Positions 9,250-16,852 of a DNA stretch of 64,000 bases are shown piece by piece; position 1 is the stretch's first letter, and every line of letters starts with the position of its first letter. The DNA comes from Actinomycetospora sp. NBRC 106375. Lineage in GTDB: Bacteria > Actinomycetota > Actinomycetes > Mycobacteriales > Pseudonocardiaceae. Under the pieces are notes generated by a model. It worked only from the letters and a program-made list of their open reading frames with translations. It was not told the origin of the DNA and searched no databases. The DNA is taken from assembly GCF_030269665.1 (NCBI RefSeq), contig NZ_BSTS01000007.1, positions 124,001 to 188,000 of the forward strand, given 5' to 3'. Position numbers and translations under genes: made by a program.

Positions 9250-10191
9250 GTGCCTGGAACCGGCCTGAAATTGGCCCTGGCCATCATCGGCGGCTATCTA
9301 CTGGGTCGCACGAAGAAGATGAAGCTCGCGATCATGCTGGGCGGTGCGCTCGCCGGGAAGAAGATCACCACTGATCCGGCGCAGCTGCTGGGTCAGGCCT
9401 CGAAGCTCATCCAGGCGTCGCCCGAGCTCCAGCGGCTCGACTCGGCGGTCCGTGGTCGCCTGCTCGAGGCGGGCAAGGACGCCGCGCTCGCCATCGCGAG
9501 CTCGCGGATGGAGTCGCTGACCGACAACCTCGTCAACCGCGTCGAGAACATCGGCAAGCCGGCGACGGACGCCGCCGGCGCGGCCGGGCAGGCGGTCGGC
9601 GAGACGGCCGGGGCCGCCGGCGACGCGGTCGGTCAGGCCGGCGGTGCGGTCGGGGACGCGGCCGCGAGCACCGGCAGTGCCGTGGGTGGCGCGGTCGGCA
9701 GCACGGCCCGTGGTGTCACGGGACGCAAGCGTCGCGCGGCGGACGAGGAGCCGGCGGACGAGGGCGTGGACGTCGCCGACGAGACCGCCGACACCGGCGA
9801 CGCGGAGGACGCGGAGGACGGCGACGAGTCGGCCCAGGAGCCCGCTCCGGCCCGCGCCGCGTCCGGGTCTGCGTCCGGGTCTGCGTCAGGGTCCTCCGGT
9901 CGTCGCCGCTCGTCGGGGTCGTCCTCGTCGTCCTCGTCGTCCGGGAGCTCCGGACGGTCGTCGGGCTCGTCGGGCAGCTCCTCGGGTGGCGAGCGCAAGC
10001 GCCGGAGCACGTCGTCCGACGACTCGTCCTCCTCCGGCTCGGGCCGCAGCTCGAGCAGCACGAACGGCTCGACTCGCAAGTCGACCTCCGGGTCCGGCGG
10101 GCGCGCGAAGTCCTCGTCGTCCGGCGGCTCGCGCAGCCGGGCCACCGCCGGGACGGGCTCGCGCCGCGGTACGGAGAAGCGCGATGACTGA
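9250..10191 (+). CDS. Gas-vesicle-operon protein with Gly/Ser-rich, Arg-containing low-complexity tail
   Basis: A 313-residue protein; GTG 9250 has GGAGG 7 nt upstream. The N-terminus has a short hydrophobic segment (LALAIIGGYLLGRTKKM, then LAIMLGGALAGKK), followed by a helical part to about residue 105. Next come Ala/Gly repeats of AAGxAVG type, an acidic stretch, and a ~110-residue tail of Ser, Gly and Arg (SGSASGSASGSS and long Ser runs). It occupies the place of the uncharacterised GvpY-like genes of Streptomyces clusters, but I do not assert identity. It overlaps the next gene by 8 bp. Confidence 0.7.
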   Translation: MPGTGLKLALAIIGGYLLGRTKKMKLAIMLGGALAGKKITTDPAQLLGQASKLIQASPELQRLDSAVRGRLLEAGKDAALAIASSRMESLTDNLVNRVENIGKPATDAAGAAGQAVGETAGAAGDAVGQAGGAVGDAAASTGSAVGGAVGSTARGVTGRKRRAADEEPADEGVDVADETADTGDAEDAEDGDESAQEPAPARAASGSASGSASGSSGRRRSSGSSSSSSSSGSSGRSSGSSGSSSGGERKRRSTSSDDSSSSGSGRSSSSTNGSTRKSTSGSGGRAKSSSSGGSRSRATAGTGSRRGTEKRDD

Positions 10192-11422
10192 TGCCGCGAC
10201 GGAGCAGGTCTCCTCGAATGGGCACCGGCCGGACGCCGACGCCGGATCGCTCACCGACATGCTCCCGACCGACCGTCTCAAGCAGGCCGCGACGGCGCTG
10301 CTGAAGGCGGCGGGTGACAAGGCGCTGAACGCTGCGCTCGACCAGGTCGAGGGCCTCACCAACAAGCTCACCGACGTCGCGGAGAACCCGAGCGTCGGTC
10401 TGTCGGCCGCCCTCGGGGGCGGCTCGTCGATGCTGCAGGGCGGCAGCGGCGTCGGGGGCGCACTGAAGGGCGGCCTCTCGGCCGTGAAGGACAAGGCCAT
10501 GGGAGCACTCGGCATGGGCGACGACTCGGACGAGGACTCCGACAGCGAGAGCGAAGGCGGGGGCGGCGGGGGCGGCAACAGCACCGGCCGGGGCAAGTTC
10601 AAGTTCATGAACATCTACGAGGTCCAGGACGTCGGGGTCCCGTTGCGCGTGGTCTACGACCAGTGGACCCAGATGGCCGACTTCCCGAGCTTCATGAAGA
10701 AGGTCGAGACGGTCAACCAGGAGTCCGACGAGAAGGTCACCTGGACCGCGAAGGTCTTCTGGTCGCGGCGTTCCTGGCAGACGACGATTCGGGAGCAGGT
10801 CCCCGACAGTCACATCCTGTGGGTCTCGTCGGGAGCGAAGGGCTCGGCGGACGGAATCGTCACCTTCAGCGAACTGGCGCCGAACCTCACGCGGATCGTG
10901 CTCATCATGGAGTACTACCCGCAGGGATTCTTCGAGAAGACCGGCAATCTCTGGCGGGCGGTCGGCCGACGTGCGCGTCTCGAATTCAAGCATTTCTGCC
11001 GTCACGTCATGATGGACACGCTCATCAATCGTGAGGAGCTCGAGGGCTGGCGCGGCGAGATCCGCGACAGCGAGGTCGTCAAGACCCACGAGGAGGCCCT
11101 CGAGGAGGAGCAGCGGGCAGCCGAGGAGGACGGCGAGACCGACGACCTCGACGAGGGCGAGCTCGCCGACGACGAGCTCGGTGACGACGAGGAGGTCGAC
11201 GACGACCTGGCCGCCGAGGACGAGGAGCTCGACGAGGACGCTGAGGACGATGACCTCGAGGACGACTACGAGGACGACCTCGACGACGTCGACGAGGACC
11301 TCGAGGACGAAGACGAGTACGAGGACGCCGAGGACGCCGAGGACGAGGTGCCCGCGGAGGACGAGGACGGTGGCGAGGACCGTCCGCGTCGCCGCTCGCG
11401 CCGTCAGCGCACGCCGGCCTGA
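10184..11422 (+). CDS. SRPBCC (polyketide-cyclase-like) protein with long acidic tail, gas-vesicle operon
   Basis: A 412-residue protein starting at ATG 10184 with GGAGAAG upstream, inside the end of the previous gene. Residues about 20-120 are helical (DRLKQAATALLKAAGDKAL), followed by an acidic/Gly linker. Residues about 143-290 form an SRPBCC/cyclase-dehydrase fold (YEVQDVGVPLRVVYDQWTQ, DFPSFMKKVETV). The last 120 residues are almost all Glu, Asp and Leu, ending in a basic RRRSRRQRTPA. Cyclase-like proteins occur in Streptomyces gas-vesicle clusters. The acidic tail is the opposite in charge of the GvpO extension. Confidence 0.75.
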   Translation: MTDAATEQVSSNGHRPDADAGSLTDMLPTDRLKQAATALLKAAGDKALNAALDQVEGLTNKLTDVAENPSVGLSAALGGGSSMLQGGSGVGGALKGGLSAVKDKAMGALGMGDDSDEDSDSESEGGGGGGGNSTGRGKFKFMNIYEVQDVGVPLRVVYDQWTQMADFPSFMKKVETVNQESDEKVTWTAKVFWSRRSWQTTIREQVPDSHILWVSSGAKGSADGIVTFSELAPNLTRIVLIMEYYPQGFFEKTGNLWRAVGRRARLEFKHFCRHVMMDTLINREELEGWRGEIRDSEVVKTHEEALEEEQRAAEEDGETDDLDEGELADDELGDDEEVDDDLAAEDEELDEDAEDDDLEDDYEDDLDDVDEDLEDEDEYEDAEDAEDEVPAEDEDGGEDRPRRRSRRQRTPA

Positions 11423-11467: not shown

Positions 11468-11498
11468 CACCGGACCCCGACGCCGTCGGGGTCCGGTG
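11468..11498 (+). terminator. Perfect 14-bp-stem hairpin just upstream of gvpA
   Basis: Arms CACCGGACCCCGAC (11468-11481) and GTCGGGGTCCGGTG (11485-11498) are perfectly complementary around a GCC loop. There is no T-run after it. It sits between the acidic-tail gene and gvpA, ending 30 nt before the gvpA start. It could partly terminate upstream transcription. It could also act as a 5' stabiliser that raises gvpA mRNA above that of its neighbours, a common device for genes of abundant structural proteins. Confidence 0.6.
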
Positions 11499-11528
11499 CC
11501 ATTCCTCGTCGCACAGAGAGGGGGCACC

Positions 11529-11915
11529 GTGACCGTCAGCCAACGGCAAGGCGGAGGGGTGCAGAAGGAGCCGCAGGGCGGGCTCGCCGAGGTCCTCGAC
11601 CTGATCCTGGACAAAGGCCTCGTCATCGACGCCTTCGTCAAGGTGTCGCTCGTCGGCATCGAACTGATCACGATCGACGCCCGCATCGTGGTCGCCAGCG
11701 TCGACACCTATCTGAAGTTCGCCGAGGCGACCAACCGCCTCGATCTGCACGCCAAGGGCGGCAAGGACCTGGGCGAGTTCCTGGGCGGCGCCACCGAGGG
11801 CGTGACGCAGGGCGGGGCGAAGGGCAAGACGAAGGGGGTGCTCGACGCCGGTAAGGAGAAGTGGGACGAGGTCCGCGGCGAGCGCCAGAGCCAGAGCCGG
11901 CGCGACAAGGCGTGA
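11529..11915 (+). CDS. gvpA: Gas vesicle major structural protein GvpA
   Basis: A 128-residue member of the GvpA family, the hydrophobic shell protein that polymerises into the ribs of the gas vesicle wall. The conserved core is [18 protein letters not shown], then [19 protein letters not shown] and [16 protein letters not shown]. The C-terminal ~50 residues form a Gly/Lys-rich tail, as in other actinobacterial GvpA proteins and unlike the short cyanobacterial ones. I chose GTG 11529 with GAGAGGGG upstream. The frame is open from 11496, but those residues do not fit the family. gvpF follows after 10 nt. Confidence 0.93.
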
Positions 11916-11925
11916 GGAGGCCGAC

Positions 11926-12732
11926 GTGACCAGCACCGAGAACACCACGCAGGCCCGGGACACGACTCGCGGGTCCTACATCTACGGCATCGTCCCGGCC
12001 GGCATCCGCATCCCCGACGGGCTCGACCCGATCCCCCACGGCGACGACGCCGGGCAGCTGGGCCTGGTGACGGAGGGCAACCTCGCGGCGGTCGTCAGCG
12101 ACGTCGCCGCCGACCGGCCGCTCGGCACGCGTCGCGACCTCATGGCGCACGAGGCCGTGCTCAACGCGATCGCGCAGGAGATCCCCGTGCTCCCGATGCG
12201 CTTCGGCGCGGTCGTCACCGACGACGACGCCGTGGCCGAGGAGCTGCTGGCCCCGCACCAGGACTACTTCGTCCGGGCGCTCGAGCAGCTGAAGGGACAC
12301 CTCGAGTTCCGGCTGCGCGGGGACTACGACCAGGACGCGGTGCTGAGCCGCATCGTCGAGGCCGACCCGCGCATCCAGCAGATGCGCGAGAAGATCGCCG
12401 GCGTCGACGAGGACGCGAGCTACTACGACCGCATCCGCCTCGGCGAGGCGATCTCGAACGCCATGGACCAGTTCCGCGCCGACGACGCGCAGGCCTGCGT
12501 CGATGCGCTCTCGAAGTTCGCGGTCGCGACGGAGGTCAAGGAGGCCGGCGGCGAGAACGGCGCCGTCCACCTCGCGTTCCTGGTCCGCACCGACAATCGC
12601 AGCGACTTCGAGCGTGCGGTCGACGACCTCGGCGACGAATGGTCCGGGCGGGTCGAGCTGCGGCTCATCGGGCCCACCGCGGCGTTCGACTTCCTCCCCG
12701 AGTTCGACGCACCCGACGAGGCCAAGGCCTGA
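11926..12732 (+). CDS. gvpF: Gas vesicle assembly protein GvpF
   Basis: A 268-residue GvpF/GvpL family protein. It has the N-terminal YIYGIVPAG strand, AAVVSDVAADRP, MAHEAVLNAIAQ, VLPMRFGAVV and the C-terminal LRLIGPTAAFDFLPEF. In known gas vesicles GvpF is an assembly factor that binds GvpA and probably starts shell formation. Start GTG 11926 has GGAGG 6 nt upstream. It is the first of two F/L paralogues here (the other is at 14996). Its place directly after gvpA matches the A-F-G order of Streptomyces clusters. Confidence 0.92.
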   Translation: MTSTENTTQARDTTRGSYIYGIVPAGIRIPDGLDPIPHGDDAGQLGLVTEGNLAAVVSDVAADRPLGTRRDLMAHEAVLNAIAQEIPVLPMRFGAVVTDDDAVAEELLAPHQDYFVRALEQLKGHLEFRLRGDYDQDAVLSRIVEADPRIQQMREKIAGVDEDASYYDRIRLGEAISNAMDQFRADDAQACVDALSKFAVATEVKEAGGENGAVHLAFLVRTDNRSDFERAVDDLGDEWSGRVELRLIGPTAAFDFLPEFDAPDEAKA

Positions 12733-12745
12733 GGGCGGCAGCGAC

Positions 12746-12979
12746 GTGGGTTTCTTCACCGAGCTCCTCCTCCTGCCTCTCGCCCCGGTCCGCGGGGTCG
12801 CGTGGGTGGGAGAGAAGATCGCCGACCAGGTCGACCACCAGATGAACGACCCGGCGGTCATCCGCGCGCAGATCGACGAGCTCGACGCGGCGTTCGAGCG
12901 GGGCGAGATCACCGAGGCCGACCGTGACGAGCAGCAGGAGGTCCTGCTGCAGCGTCTCGTCGGCGGAGGTGGGGCGTGA
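12746..12979 (+). CDS. gvpG: Gas vesicle protein GvpG
   Basis: A 77-residue GvpG protein: hydrophobic FFTELLLLPLAPVRGVAWVG, then an amphipathic helical part with DPAVIRAQIDELDAAFERGE. GvpG is a small accessory protein thought to work with GvpF and GvpL in nucleating the vesicle. It starts at GTG 12746, 13 nt after gvpF, and its stop overlaps the start of the extended gvpO by GTGA, so translation is coupled. Length is normal for the family. Confidence 0.9.
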   Translation: MGFFTELLLLPLAPVRGVAWVGEKIADQVDHQMNDPAVIRAQIDELDAAFERGEITEADRDEQQEVLLQRLVGGGGA

Positions 12980-14418
12980 CGCGCTCCGCCGACCGCGAGG
13001 CCGCACCCGAGGACCAGGACACCCGCGACGACGAACCGCCACCCCTGACCGACCAGGAGCGGCCCCGCCGCCGACGGTCGAACGGCGACGGTGCTGACGA
13101 CGGTGAGCGGCCGCGCCGGCGTCGGTCGAACGGCGACGAGGTGGGCGGCGACGACGCGGACACCGAGTCGCCGCGTCGGCGTCGGCGCACCGCGGAGACC
13201 GCGGAGACCGCGGAGGCCTCGGCGACCTCGGAGACCTCGGAGACCTCGGCCACCGAGGGCGAGGGGCGTCCGCGACGTCGCCGCCGGTCGGCGGAGGACG
13301 GCTCCAGCGCCGAGGAACGCCCGCGCCGACGGCGCACGCAGGCGGCGTCGTCCGACGAGGAGCGGCCCCGGCGCCGCCGGTCCTCCGACGAGCAGGAGGG
13401 CGAGGCGGAACGGCCTCGGCGGCGACGGGCGAGCGGCGAGGGCGACGGCGAGTCGGACCGTCCGCGACGGCGCCGGGCCGATGCCGGCGGTGACGAGGAG
13501 GCCCGGCCGCGGAAGCGACGCCGCACCGACGATGCGGCCGACGAGAGCACCGATGGCGATACCCGGCCGCGCACGCGGCGGCGCACCGACGACGCGGCCG
13601 AGGGCACCGACGGCGAGGCCACGCCGCGGAAGCGCAGGCGCACCAACGACGCGGCGGAGGGCACCGACGGCGAGGCCCGGCCGCAGCGCCGGCGCCGCAC
13701 GGACACGTCGGACGGCGAGCAGCCGCGCCGGCGTCGCCGGGCCGCGAGCGACGGAACGTCGGACGCCGACCGTCCGCCGCGCCGTCGCTCGGCCGACGGG
13801 GGTGCCGATGCGGACGACCCTCCCCGGAGGCGCCGCCGGGCACCCGACGAGGAGGCACCGGACCAGGAACGTGCGCGCCGGCGACGGCGCCCGTCCGCGG
13901 CGGCGTCCGACGCGGAGCCCGAGACGGAGGCCGGTGACGTGTCGGAGGACGAGCTGCCCCGTCGGCGGCGCCGGCCGGCCGGTGACGGCGACGCGGACCA
14001 GGAGCGGCCCCGCCGCCGCACCCGCGAACCCGAACCCGAGCCCGACCCCGAACCGGAGGACCTCGAGGACGACGTCGACGACGCCGAGGACGAGGTCGAG
14101 GACGAGCCGGAACCCGAACCCGAACCGGAGCCCGAACCCGAACCCGAACCGCAGCCCAAGAAGATTTCCGCGCGGAAGATCGCGCGGTGGGCGGCGGAGC
14201 AGGTGCAGGAGATGAGCGGCAAGGAGAGCGAGGCCGTCACGTCGGTGCGCAAGACCGACGACGGCTGGGTGGTGGGTCTCGAGGTGGTGGAGAGCCGCAA
14301 GATCCCCGAGACCAGCGACCTGCTCGCCACCTACGAGGCCGAGATGGACGCGGACGGCGACCTGGTCAGCTACCACCGGGTCAAGCGCTACACCCGCGGC
14401 CGCGGCGACGACGACTGA
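12976..14418 (+). CDS. gvpO: GvpO with a ~390-residue Arg-block polyampholyte N-terminal extension
   Basis: The C-terminal ~86 residues (395-480: KKISARKIARWAAEQVQEM, DDGWVVGLEVVESRKIPET, MDADGDLVSYHRVKRYTRG) are a GvpO domain, a family required for gas vesicle production in haloarchaea and actinobacteria. Before it lie about 390 residues with around 18 blocks like RPRRRR, spaced 15-30 residues apart by Asp/Glu/Ser/Thr-rich linkers. An EPEPEP stretch precedes the domain. Ordinary GvpO proteins are roughly 100-150 residues. The frame is continuous from GTG 12976, and the alternating basic and acidic pattern makes an artefact unlikely. The extension should be disordered and could bind nucleic acid or the acidic tails encoded nearby. 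Confidence 0.85.
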   Translation: MTRSADREAAPEDQDTRDDEPPPLTDQERPRRRRSNGDGADDGERPRRRRSNGDEVGGDDADTESPRRRRRTAETAETAEASATSETSETSATEGEGRPRRRRRSAEDGSSAEERPRRRRTQAASSDEERPRRRRSSDEQEGEAERPRRRRASGEGDGESDRPRRRRADAGGDEEARPRKRRRTDDAADESTDGDTRPRTRRRTDDAAEGTDGEATPRKRRRTNDAAEGTDGEARPQRRRRTDTSDGEQPRRRRRAASDGTSDADRPPRRRSADGGADADDPPRRRRRAPDEEAPDQERARRRRRPSAAASDAEPETEAGDVSEDELPRRRRRPAGDGDADQERPRRRTREPEPEPDPEPEDLEDDVDDAEDEVEDEPEPEPEPEPEPEPEPQPKKISARKIARWAAEQVQEMSGKESEAVTSVRKTDDGWVVGLEVVESRKIPETSDLLATYEAEMDADGDLVSYHRVKRYTRGRGDDD

Positions 14419-14447: not shown

Positions 14448-14999
14448 ATGAGTGACCCGGTGCGCTGGACCGGGCAGATGCCGTCCGCACCCCAGCAGGG
14501 GCGGCAGCCCGCGAGCCAGAACGGCGGCGGGGACGGCACGAACCTCGCCGACATCCTCGAGCGGGTCCTCGACAAGGGGATCGTGATCGCCGGCGACGTC
14601 CAGATCAACCTGCTCGACATCGAGCTGCTGACGATCAAACTGCGGCTGGTCGTAGCCTCGGTGGACCGGGCCAAGGAGATGGGCATCGACTGGTGGGAAC
14701 GCGACCCCACCCTGTCGTCCGGGCACCGCGAGCTCGAGGAGGAGAACCAGCGGCTCCGCGACCGTCTCGAGGCGCTGGAGAACGGCCGGGCGCCGGCCGC
14801 CCTCGACCGCGGTGACGACGCCGAGCGCGCGGACGAGCCCGACGACGAGGCCGGCGACGACCTCGAGGAGGACCTCGAGGACGAGCCCGACGACGCCGGG
14901 GACGAGCCTGTCGACGAGGAGCCGGAGCCCGCTCCCGCCCGGAAGCGCTCGAGCCAGCAGCGCTCGGGCCAGCAGCGCCGGCGGAGGACCACGCGGTGA
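14448..14999 (+). CDS. gvpJ: Gas vesicle protein GvpJ
   Basis: A 183-residue GvpA-like minor protein of the GvpJ type: LADILERVLDKGIVIAGDVQ, NLLDIELLTIKLRLVVASVD and KAKEMGIDWW-like RAKEMGIDWW. These are the hallmarks that separate GvpJ from GvpA. A coiled-coil segment (HRELEEENQRLRDRLEALE), an acidic stretch and a basic Ser/Gln/Arg end follow. The start at ATG 14448 is preceded by GAGAGGGAG. It lies 29 nt after gvpO, and its stop overlaps gvpL by GTGA. GvpJ probably forms part of the conical vesicle ends. Confidence 0.9.
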   Translation: MSDPVRWTGQMPSAPQQGRQPASQNGGGDGTNLADILERVLDKGIVIAGDVQINLLDIELLTIKLRLVVASVDRAKEMGIDWWERDPTLSSGHRELEEENQRLRDRLEALENGRAPAALDRGDDAERADEPDDEAGDDLEEDLEDEPDDAGDEPVDEEPEPAPARKRSSQQRSGQQRRRRTTR

Positions 15000-15763
15000 G
15001 CGACACGTTGACCTACGTCTACGCGATCGCGAGGGACGTCGACCCGGCGGCGGTCGCCGCGCTCCAGGGCGTCGGCGGTGGTGCCGTCCGGACGCTCGAC
15101 GCGGGCGGGGTTCTCGCGGTGGTGAGCGACGTCGACCGCGGGGAGTTCGAGGAGCGGGCGCTGGAGGAGCGCCTCGAGGACCTCGAGTGGCTCGCCGCCA
15201 CCGCCCGGGCGCACCACCACGTGGTCGACACCCTCGGCCACGACCACCTCGTCGCCCCGCTCGCCCTGGCCACCGTGTACTTCGACGACGACCGGGTCCG
15301 CGCCGTCCTCGACGAGGGGCGCGCGACGTTCGCGGCGGTGCTCGACCAGCTCTCGGGCCGGGCGGAGTGGGGCGTCAAGGTCTACGGCCGTCCGGGCGGC
15401 GCCGCGGCCGCCGCGACGCAGGAAAAGCCGGGGTCGGGCGCCGAGTACCTGCGACGACGCCGCCAGGCGCTCCGCGAGACCGACACCGCGCTCGACGACG
15501 CGCGTGACGCCGCCGCGGAGGTGGACGCCGCGGTCACCACGCTCGCCGCCGCGTCGCGCAGCCACCGTCTCCAGGACGCGACGCTGTCCGGCGAGTCCGA
15601 CCCGATGGTGCTCAACCGCGCCTACCTCGTGCCCATCGATCGGGCCGCCGACCTGCGGGAGGTCGTCGCGTCCCTCGAGGGCCACCCGCGCATCCGGGTC
15701 GAGCTCACCGGGCCGTGGGTGCCGTACTCCTTCGCGCAGGCCCCGGAGGGAGCGGCCCCGTGA
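14996..15763 (+). CDS. gvpL: Gas vesicle assembly protein GvpL
   Basis: The second GvpF/GvpL family protein, 255 residues: LTYVYAIARDVDP at the start, VLAVVSDVDRGEF, ATARAHHHVVDTL, and LTGPWVPYSFA at the end. The position between gvpJ and gvpS matches gvpL in Streptomyces. The start GTG 14996 overlaps the gvpJ stop and the end overlaps gvpS, so J, L and S are translationally coupled. GvpL is an accessory protein that bridges several Gvp proteins during assembly. Confidence 0.9.
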   Translation: MSDTLTYVYAIARDVDPAAVAALQGVGGGAVRTLDAGGVLAVVSDVDRGEFEERALEERLEDLEWLAATARAHHHVVDTLGHDHLVAPLALATVYFDDDRVRAVLDEGRATFAAVLDQLSGRAEWGVKVYGRPGGAAAAATQEKPGSGAEYLRRRRQALRETDTALDDARDAAAEVDAAVTTLAAASRSHRLQDATLSGESDPMVLNRAYLVPIDRAADLREVVASLEGHPRIRVELTGPWVPYSFAQAPEGAAP

Positions 15764-16017
15764 CGGCACCGCACTCCGGGGAGCTCGAGCCGCGGGCGAC
15801 GTCGCTGTTCGGTGACCAGGAGGTCGCCCTCGTCGACCTGCTCGACCGACTCCTCGCCGGCGGTGTGGTGCTGGCCGGCGACCTGACGATCTCGCTCGCC
15901 GGGGTCGACCTCGTGCGGGTCTCCCTGCGGGCGCTGATCACGTCGATCGCACCGGTCGAGCGCCAGGGGACTCTCGAGCAACGCGCGCAGCGGGAGCTGG
16001 AGGCCGGCGATGGTTGA
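15760..16017 (+). CDS. gvpS: Gas vesicle protein GvpS (GvpA-like)
   Basis: An 85-residue GvpA-superfamily protein. The core ALVDLLDRLLAGGVVLAGDL, then SLAGVDLVRVSLRALITSI, follows the GvpA/J helix-strand-strand-helix pattern but is more divergent. Its place between gvpL and gvpK matches gvpS of actinobacterial clusters. GTG 15760 overlaps the gvpL stop, and its last 8 bp overlap the gvpK start. It is a minor shell or accessory component. Confidence 0.85.
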   Translation: MTAPHSGELEPRATSLFGDQEVALVDLLDRLLAGGVVLAGDLTISLAGVDLVRVSLRALITSIAPVERQGTLEQRAQRELEAGDG

Positions 16018-16297
16018 CCGGCCGAACCGGATCGAGATCGACAAGGACGAGGTCCGCCGGGATCTCATGAAGCTCGTGCTGACGATCGTGGAGCTGCTGC
16101 GCCAGCTCATGGAGCGGCAGGCGATCCGCCGGGTGGACCAGGGCGACCTCACCGAGCAGGAGGAGGAGGACCTCGGCACGTCGCTGATGCTCCTCGCCGA
16201 GGCGATGGACGAGCTCACCGAGCAGTTCGGGCTCACCCCGGCCGACCTCAACCTCGACCTGGGCCCGCTCGGCCCGCTGCTCCCGCGCGACCGCTGA
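16010..16297 (+). CDS. gvpK: Gas vesicle protein GvpK
   Basis: A 95-residue GvpK protein. LMKLVLTIVELLRQLMERQA is followed by IRRVDQGDLTEQEEEDLGTS, a typical family segment, and LNLDLGPLGPLL at the end. GvpK is a small accessory protein needed for vesicle formation. The start ATG 16010 has GGAGG about 8 nt upstream, inside gvpS. It closes the contiguous gvp run. The following gene starts 51 nt later and may have its own promoter. Confidence 0.92.
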   Translation: MVDRPNRIEIDKDEVRRDLMKLVLTIVELLRQLMERQAIRRVDQGDLTEQEEEDLGTSLMLLAEAMDELTEQFGLTPADLNLDLGPLGPLLPRDR

Positions 16298-16348: not shown

Positions 16349-16852
16349 ATGACCAGCGCTCAGCGTCCGAGCAGCACCCCCGACAGCCCGACCCCCACCG
16401 CGACCTCCGTCGGTGGCGCCGCGGGCGACCCGACCACGGTCGAGGGCACCACTGAGGTCCTCCCCTCGGTGGTGCAGAAGGTGACCGCCTTCGCGGCGCG
16501 CGAGATCCCCGGGGTCGCGGCCCTCGGCGGCAGCGCCTCGCGCGCCGTCGGCGCCGTGCGCCAGACCCTGACGGGCAACACCGAGAACACAGCGGGCGTC
16601 CGCGTCGAGCTCGAGGAGCAGACCGCCCGCATCGGCGTCGACGTCGCCATCGAGTACGGCGTCGGCGCCCGCGAGCTGGTCCGCGCCCTGCGCCGCCACA
16701 TCCCGCGCGCGGTGGAGGAGATCGCCGGCGTCACGGTCGTCGAGCTCAACGTCGTCATCACCGACGTGCAGCTCCCCGGCGGCGAGGACGCCGACGCCGG
16801 CGCCACCCCGCCCCCGCCCCCGCCTCCGCCCCGGCCGGGCGCGACCCTCTGA
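16349..16852 (+). CDS. Asp23/Gls24 family envelope-stress protein
   Basis: A 167-residue protein with an Asp23/Gls24 domain at about residues 38-145 (VLPSVVQKVTAFAAREIPGV, then VRVELEEQTARIGVDVAIEY and RAVEEIAGVTVVELNVVITD) between low-complexity ends, the last with a run of prolines. Members are alkaline-shock or envelope-stress proteins of unclear biochemistry. It is co-directional with the gvp genes, 51 nt after gvpK, and convergent with rmlC 12 nt away. Whether it belongs to the gas-vesicle unit is unknown. Confidence 0.85.
   Translation: MTSAQRPSSTPDSPTPTATSVGGAAGDPTTVEGTTEVLPSVVQKVTAFAAREIPGVAALGGSASRAVGAVRQTLTGNTENTAGVRVELEEQTARIGVDVAIEYGVGARELVRALRRHIPRAVEEIAGVTVVELNVVITDVQLPGGEDADAGATPPPPPPPPRPGATL

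Follow-up and report, generated by a model that had tools for sequence, protein, structure and literature searches.

A GvpO-Family Gas Vesicle Protein of Actinomycetospora with a Long N-Terminal Arm of Alternating Charged Blocks

GvpO proteins are normally about 100 to 150 residues long. A gvpO gene of Actinomycetospora sp. NBRC 106375, located in the 64,000-nucleotide stretch analyzed here (referred to as the window; contig NZ_BSTS01000007.1, positions 124,001 to 188,000), has a much longer reading frame, which raises the question of whether the N-terminal extension is a real part of the protein and, if so, what it may do. The GvpO of Halobacterium is essential and binds GvpA monomers and multimers as well as GvpN, GvpC, GvpF, GvpI, and GvpL (PMC9372576). 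Both that interaction study and a review (PMC9501494) describe what GvpO does as not yet known or clear. In the Bacillus megaterium system, GvpU and GvpT are reported to cluster vesicles, and GvpU to bind more of the GvpO homolog GvpR without the other Gvps (PMC11445434). GvpR is reported as nonessential there, and three of four GvpR fusions disturbed vesicle formation, suggesting that added mass on GvpR is not harmless in the Bacillus system (PMC11445434).

The window protein is a genuine GvpO by homology and gene context (Table 1). The Pfam profile PF05800 matches it over model positions 5 to 94 of 94 (100.9 bits against a cutoff of 25; E value of 4e-29), and the gene is flanked by those for GvpG, GvpF/L, GvpA-like proteins, and GvpK. 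At 480 residues, the protein exceeds the usual size, which is a length norm rather than a defining feature of homology. There is a single GvpO match across this genome assembly. The structural model of the domain is of moderate quality (mean pLDDT of 78.8 and pTM of 0.62, from seven close sequences). Foldseek retrieved no fold relatives of the domain at an E value of up to 0.001 (the best hit was a designed cystatin-fold protein with an E value of 0.044), a profile search of the PDB returned nothing convincing (best E value of 0.27), and the full protein had no NCBIfam match at an E value of up to 0.001. The protein thus shares with haloarchaeal and actinobacterial GvpO a domain above the Pfam cutoff and an operon with gvpF/L, gvpG, gvpK, and gvpA-family genes, but differs from them in its blocky N-terminal arm of 388 residues. 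We found no description of such an architecture in the open-license literature, and no open-license paper linking GvpO with the term "intrinsically disordered"; a single paper there mentions both Actinomycetospora and gas vesicles.

Table 1. Gas vesicle cluster of the window and parts of its gvpO gene
Feature	Position in window	Strand	Remarks
First gene of the cluster, 313 aa	9250..10191	+	Ser/Arg-rich tail; no Pfam/NCBIfam match
SRPBCC (PF03364) protein	10184..11422	+	123-residue tail with 67 acidic and 11 basic residues; basic cluster at very end
GvpA-like shell protein	11496..11915	+	
GvpF/GvpL family protein	11926..12732	+	
GvpG	12746..12979	+	
gvpO, 480 aa	12976..14418	+	GTG start overlapping gvpG stop; Pfam GvpO match
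Block region, residues 1-349	12976..14022	+	18 Pro-Arg blocks; acidic Ser/Thr/Gly linkers; net charge +5; predicted disordered
Local DNA duplication in block region	13498..13684	+	57-bp unit; 3.2 copies; 82% matches
Acidic EPEP spacer, residues 350-388	14023..14139	+	Net charge -22
GvpO domain (PF05800), residues 389-478	14140..14409	+	Pfam match; model with one helix and four strands
GvpA-family protein	14448..14999	+	C-terminal tail acidic, then basic
GvpF/GvpL family protein	14996..15763	+	
GvpA-family protein	15715..16017	+	
GvpK	16010..16297	+	
Asp23-family protein	16349..16852	+	Adjoins the cluster

The original prediction of a GvpO of unusual length with about 18 RPRRRR-like blocks and an EPEP repeat was confirmed, and the extension is also predicted to be disordered; the domain, which it placed at residues 395 to 480, has somewhat different limits in Pfam. 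The blocks (PRRRR, PRKRRR, PQRRRR, and similar) are spaced 14 to 33 residues apart (median, 17), and all but two of the 17 intervals fall in the range of 14 to 20 residues. The arm contains 93 Arg, 57 Glu, 55 Asp, 45 Ala, and 39 Pro residues and is devoid of Phe, Trp, Tyr, Ile, His, and Cys; Met occurs only as the start. Positive and negative charges are nearly balanced in the block region (94 versus 89), and together with the acidic spacer the arm has a net charge of -17, i.e., it is not a simple polycationic tail. Its charge patterning exceeds chance, with a kappa of about 0.40 for the whole arm versus 0.135 in shuffled sequences (z score of 12) and of 0.378 versus 0.137 for the block region alone (z score of 10.5). 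AlphaFold assigned residues 1 to 340 mostly pLDDT values of 35 to 50 and no secondary structure, from a shallow alignment of five sequences. The arm is therefore a blocky and probably disordered polyampholyte. Rho, RNase E, and IF2 of actinobacteria also have Arg-rich disordered arms, which are likewise long, charged, and of low complexity and likewise belong to GC-rich organisms, but which act on RNA or ribosomes.

Each of the 18 genus genomes examined has a GvpO (25 matches in total), and 16 of these genomes carry a gvpO copy in a gvp cluster. The extension is present in all 16 copies; it could be followed from a start codon in 14 and contains Arg blocks in 15. One copy (L057) is cut by a contig end within the acidic part, and in another (L061) the extension follows a stop close to the contig end and lacks a start codon. 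With the start taken as the first in-frame start codon preceded by a Shine-Dalgarno-like sequence, or else as the first start, the arms of the 14 copies that have one range from 142 to 395 residues in length. In the two other genomes (G012 and G014; 84 and 83% complete), only a second, short-armed GvpO type was found. This paralog occurs in the genus at L017 to L025 (nine loci in eight genomes) and at L105 and L106; profiles found no other gvp gene in the 16-kb stretches around the latter two, where it looks like an orphan GvpO.

Long extensions are less common outside the genus. GvpO was detected in 89 of 249 genomes of the family, and 43 of the 77 matches outside the genus were examined: 8 have an extension of at least 120 residues (the start of one, L080, is doubtful), whereas in 35 the domain is preceded by at most 98 residues. 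Surveys of the order and the phylum identified GvpO in 71 of 397 and 22 of 396 genomes, respectively, and none of the 20 loci followed from these surveys encodes an Arg-block arm. A GvpO of the same class (L119) has a 161-residue extension that is basic first and then strongly acidic. Among plasmid records, all 12 matches fell inside query residues 395 to 480, i.e., in the domain alone, and none to the arm. In a tree of seven concatenated Gvp proteins (47 rows; arm left out), the 16 genus rows and four of the eight rows of genus g5 form one clade with an SH-aLRT support of 100. Arg blocks are present in 19 of its 20 rows, the twentieth being the cut L057. At least three changes of the long-arm trait (at least 120 residues and at least two blocks) are needed on this tree, L057 and L080 being left out of the count.

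The charge pattern recurs across this clade despite varying lengths and linkers. The 17 tabulated clade rows have kappa values of 0.33 to 0.49 versus 0.14 to 0.19 in shuffled sequences (z scores of 4.6 to 15.2); the table leaves out L049 (over-called start), L057 (cut by the contig end), and L061 (no start codon; stop near the contig end), and the L050 arm contains unread bases (N). Long extensions are net negative in all 20 tabulated cases, with charges of -4 to -98. Because kappa is kept while length varies and all long extensions are net negative, the conserved property is the alternation of charged blocks, not a net positive charge. Two long extensions of genus g13 are not blocky (kappa of 0.16 and 0.18; z scores of 1.0 and 1.4).

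The genes around gvpO encode further charged tails. The cluster runs from the first gene through those for SRPBCC, GvpA-like, GvpF/L, GvpG, GvpO, GvpA-like, GvpF/L, GvpA-like, and GvpK proteins to an Asp23-family gene, and the operon context of the long-armed gvpO is conserved among the loci mapped. The N-terminal part of the first gene product recurs in most mapped clusters. The Asp23-family gene directly follows gvpK in the window, and profiles detected this family in 8 of 16 genus stretches, the window among them, some of these stretches being short. In 42 of 44 loci, the SRPBCC tail has a net excess of at least 15 acidic charges, even at loci whose GvpO N-terminus has 5 to 30 residues. In most loci, this tail ends in a small basic cluster. 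At one locus (L115), it consists of near-identical SDDQATAE-like repeats and is net acidic by 82, and the same stretch encodes a GvpO with GGDQSK repeats. The GvpA-like protein encoded after gvpO has an acidic-then-basic tail in the window and in many congeners. Five armed congeners, three read directly (L050, L051, and L052) and two by tail measure (L049 and L053), do not have its long acidic tail, and the next GvpA-like protein was rejected as an obligatory partner of the arm.

The prediction that the arm binds the acidic SRPBCC tail is weakened by these data. Arm length correlates with SRPBCC tail length across 44 loci (rho of 0.68; rows not independent) and across genus means (n = 17; rho of 0.59; P value of 0.012), but not significantly within genera (g1, rho of 0.41 and P value of 0.15; g5, rho of 0.45 and P value of 0.27). 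When the tail of the first gene product is included, all three lengths correlate with one another (rho of 0.71 to 0.73, the arm with the SRPBCC tail at 0.71 and with the first-gene tail at 0.73), with partial correlations of 0.37 and 0.44. The correlation was rejected as evidence for a specific pairing of arm and SRPBCC tail, since the first-gene tail correlates as well, the acidic tail also occurs without the arm, the within-genus tests are not significant, and the rows are not independent. As the correlation with the SRPBCC tail (0.71) is no better than that with the first-gene tail, a lineage-wide growth of disordered tails is suggested rather than one specific pair.

What, then, may the arm do? 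The best-supported reading, which we hold tentatively and at somewhat less than an even chance, is that the arm is a multivalent electrostatic scaffold that concentrates assembly factors or clusters vesicles. The folded C-terminal domain would do the usual work of GvpO, i.e., bind GvpA and other accessory Gvps. The Arg blocks would adhere to acidic stretches, both within further arm copies and in the acidic tails of neighboring proteins (SRPBCC and, in many species, the next GvpA-like protein). Such block-wise contacts could concentrate assembly factors or could cluster finished vesicles, as GvpU does in Bacillus megaterium, while the EPEP spacer would keep these adhesive blocks at a distance from the GvpO domain. 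We favor the scaffold because of the charge segregation in 17 clade members, the protein-level constraint on the blocks, the predicted disorder, the acidic tails on other operon proteins, and the conserved operon context, together with the binding of GvpO to GvpA and accessory proteins (PMC9372576), the binding of GvpU to GvpR, and the clustering by GvpU and GvpT (PMC11445434). The likeness to GvpU lies in a proposed role in the spatial organization of vesicles and in the binding of GvpU to a GvpO homolog (PMC11445434); it is one of described role, and the arm differs in being fused to GvpO itself, where clustering is inferred. Counted against the scaffold are the SRPBCC acidic tails at loci without an arm, the nonsignificant correlations within genera, the five armed congeners without a long acidic tail on the next GvpA-like protein, the two nonblocky extensions of genus g13, and the published findings on GvpR, which is reported as nonessential and most of whose fusions disturbed vesicle formation (PMC11445434).

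Alternatively, the arm may be a product of low-complexity growth across the lineage, in which repeat expansion in a GC-rich genome produced a generic solubility tail or spacer, a reading we consider unlikely, yet a serious competitor. The local duplication (57-bp unit; 3.2 copies) shows that part of the arm grew in this way. The range of arm lengths inside one genus points in the same direction, as do the tails of the first two cluster genes, which lengthen in the same lineages (rho of 0.71 to 0.73), and an N-terminus common to only half of the genus copies. Pairwise dN/dS values are 0.22 to 0.52 for the arm versus 0 to 0.27 for the domain in 11 comparisons that were chosen by hand (one including L049, one the cut L057, and one from genus g13); the values are rough, given the uncertain alignment of repeats, and suggest weaker constraint on the arm than on the domain. 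However, the block pattern has been retained. No two of the 18 blocks have the same DNA sequence in their five-codon cores, and the blocks differ from one another at 14.5%, 14.5%, and 62.5% of first, second, and third codon positions, respectively. Because these differences lie mostly at third positions, the codon patterns point to selection at the protein level. Furthermore, a DNA pattern for E-R-P-R-R-R-R has 23 matches genome-wide, 5 within gvpO and 18 single and scattered, and no second site with more than one match was found; looser repeats may exist elsewhere, since this strict pattern catches only 5 of the 18 blocks here. A reversed control pattern has four matches, indicating that single Arg blocks are commoner elsewhere in the genome than that control.

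A further reading, that the Arg blocks bind DNA or RNA and GvpO thereby anchors the assembly complex, or else the vesicles, on the nucleoid or on mRNA, is in our view doubtful, but it draws on GvpO proteins of another class of the phylum. Among 66 genomes of that class, 10 have GvpO, and in 7 of these 10 loci (L114, L116, L117, L125, L133, L134, and L136) an N-terminal SAP domain (PF02037) scored above the Pfam cutoff. SAP is a putative DNA-binding motif. One of the loci encodes two SAP domains and one a Lys-rich linker; as for the other three GvpO loci, SAP is absent in two, and a stop interrupts the frame of the third, whose N-terminus could not be judged. Three of the four SAP loci mapped (L114, L116, and L117) share with the window a gvpG directly ahead of gvpO. 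In L125/L142, the start codon preceding SAP is the sole in-frame start ahead of the GvpO domain, and the only other in-frame start in L117/L141 lies upstream of SAP, so that SAP and GvpO domains form one protein there. These proteins thus resemble the window GvpO in having the same folded domain with an N-terminal elaboration, but carry a folded SAP module where the window protein has Arg blocks. SAP modules and Arg-block arms are likely of separate origin, and the comparison indicates that the GvpO N-terminus is a site where lineages attach modules. No open-license paper joining "SAP domain" with "gas vesicle" was found.

GvpO N-termini have accordingly been fitted with modules resembling nucleic-acid-binding ones at least once elsewhere, which makes a nucleic-acid role worth testing and provides no evidence that Arg blocks bind DNA. 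SAP differs from Arg blocks, so that the parallel is only suggestive, and a Pfam search of the window protein at an E value of up to 0.1 returned neither SAP nor any other family that binds nucleic acid. The net negative charge of the window arm, shared by every long arm tabulated, makes simple DNA or RNA binding less obvious. The extension put forward in the original prediction is real, genus-wide as far as seen, and predicted to be disordered, while the proposed binding to nucleic acid, like that to the SRPBCC tail, has lost ground. A broader variant would make GvpO a modular positioning adaptor whose domain holds the nascent shell and whose arm docks onto a cellular polyanion or condensate, lineages having independently added SAP or Arg-block arms; we regard it as improbable, though worth stating.

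Several observations bear on whether the extension is translated. The gvpO frame comprises 480 uninterrupted codons with no internal stop, its GTG start shares the sequence GTGA with the gvpG stop, and GGAGG lies upstream of this start. VTRSAD is the N-terminus of 7 of the 14 genus copies in which a start codon is present, and the other 7 begin differently; in an alignment of five Actinomycetospora species, all of the VTRSAD type, four share PPLTDQERPRRRR as well. In 7 of the 14 copies, there is no alternative in-frame ATG, GTG, or TTG between the start used and the GvpO domain, which makes a shorter GvpO product impossible in those 7. That the extension is an untranslated artefact of annotation or assembly, with the true start near the domain, is therefore very improbable despite two further in-frame GTG codons in the window gene, one of them (13939) with GGAGG upstream, since the extension also recurs in further genus assemblies, including six that are named Actinomycetospora records.

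The patterned arm and the SAP-bearing relatives offer a handle on this accessory protein, as they suggest that GvpO connects the gas vesicle shell with another component of the cell. If GvpO acted as a positioning adaptor, the nucleoid or a dedicated condensate would be the place to which gas vesicle assembly is tethered. The arm could also supply a naturally occurring module with which to cluster or position engineered vesicles.
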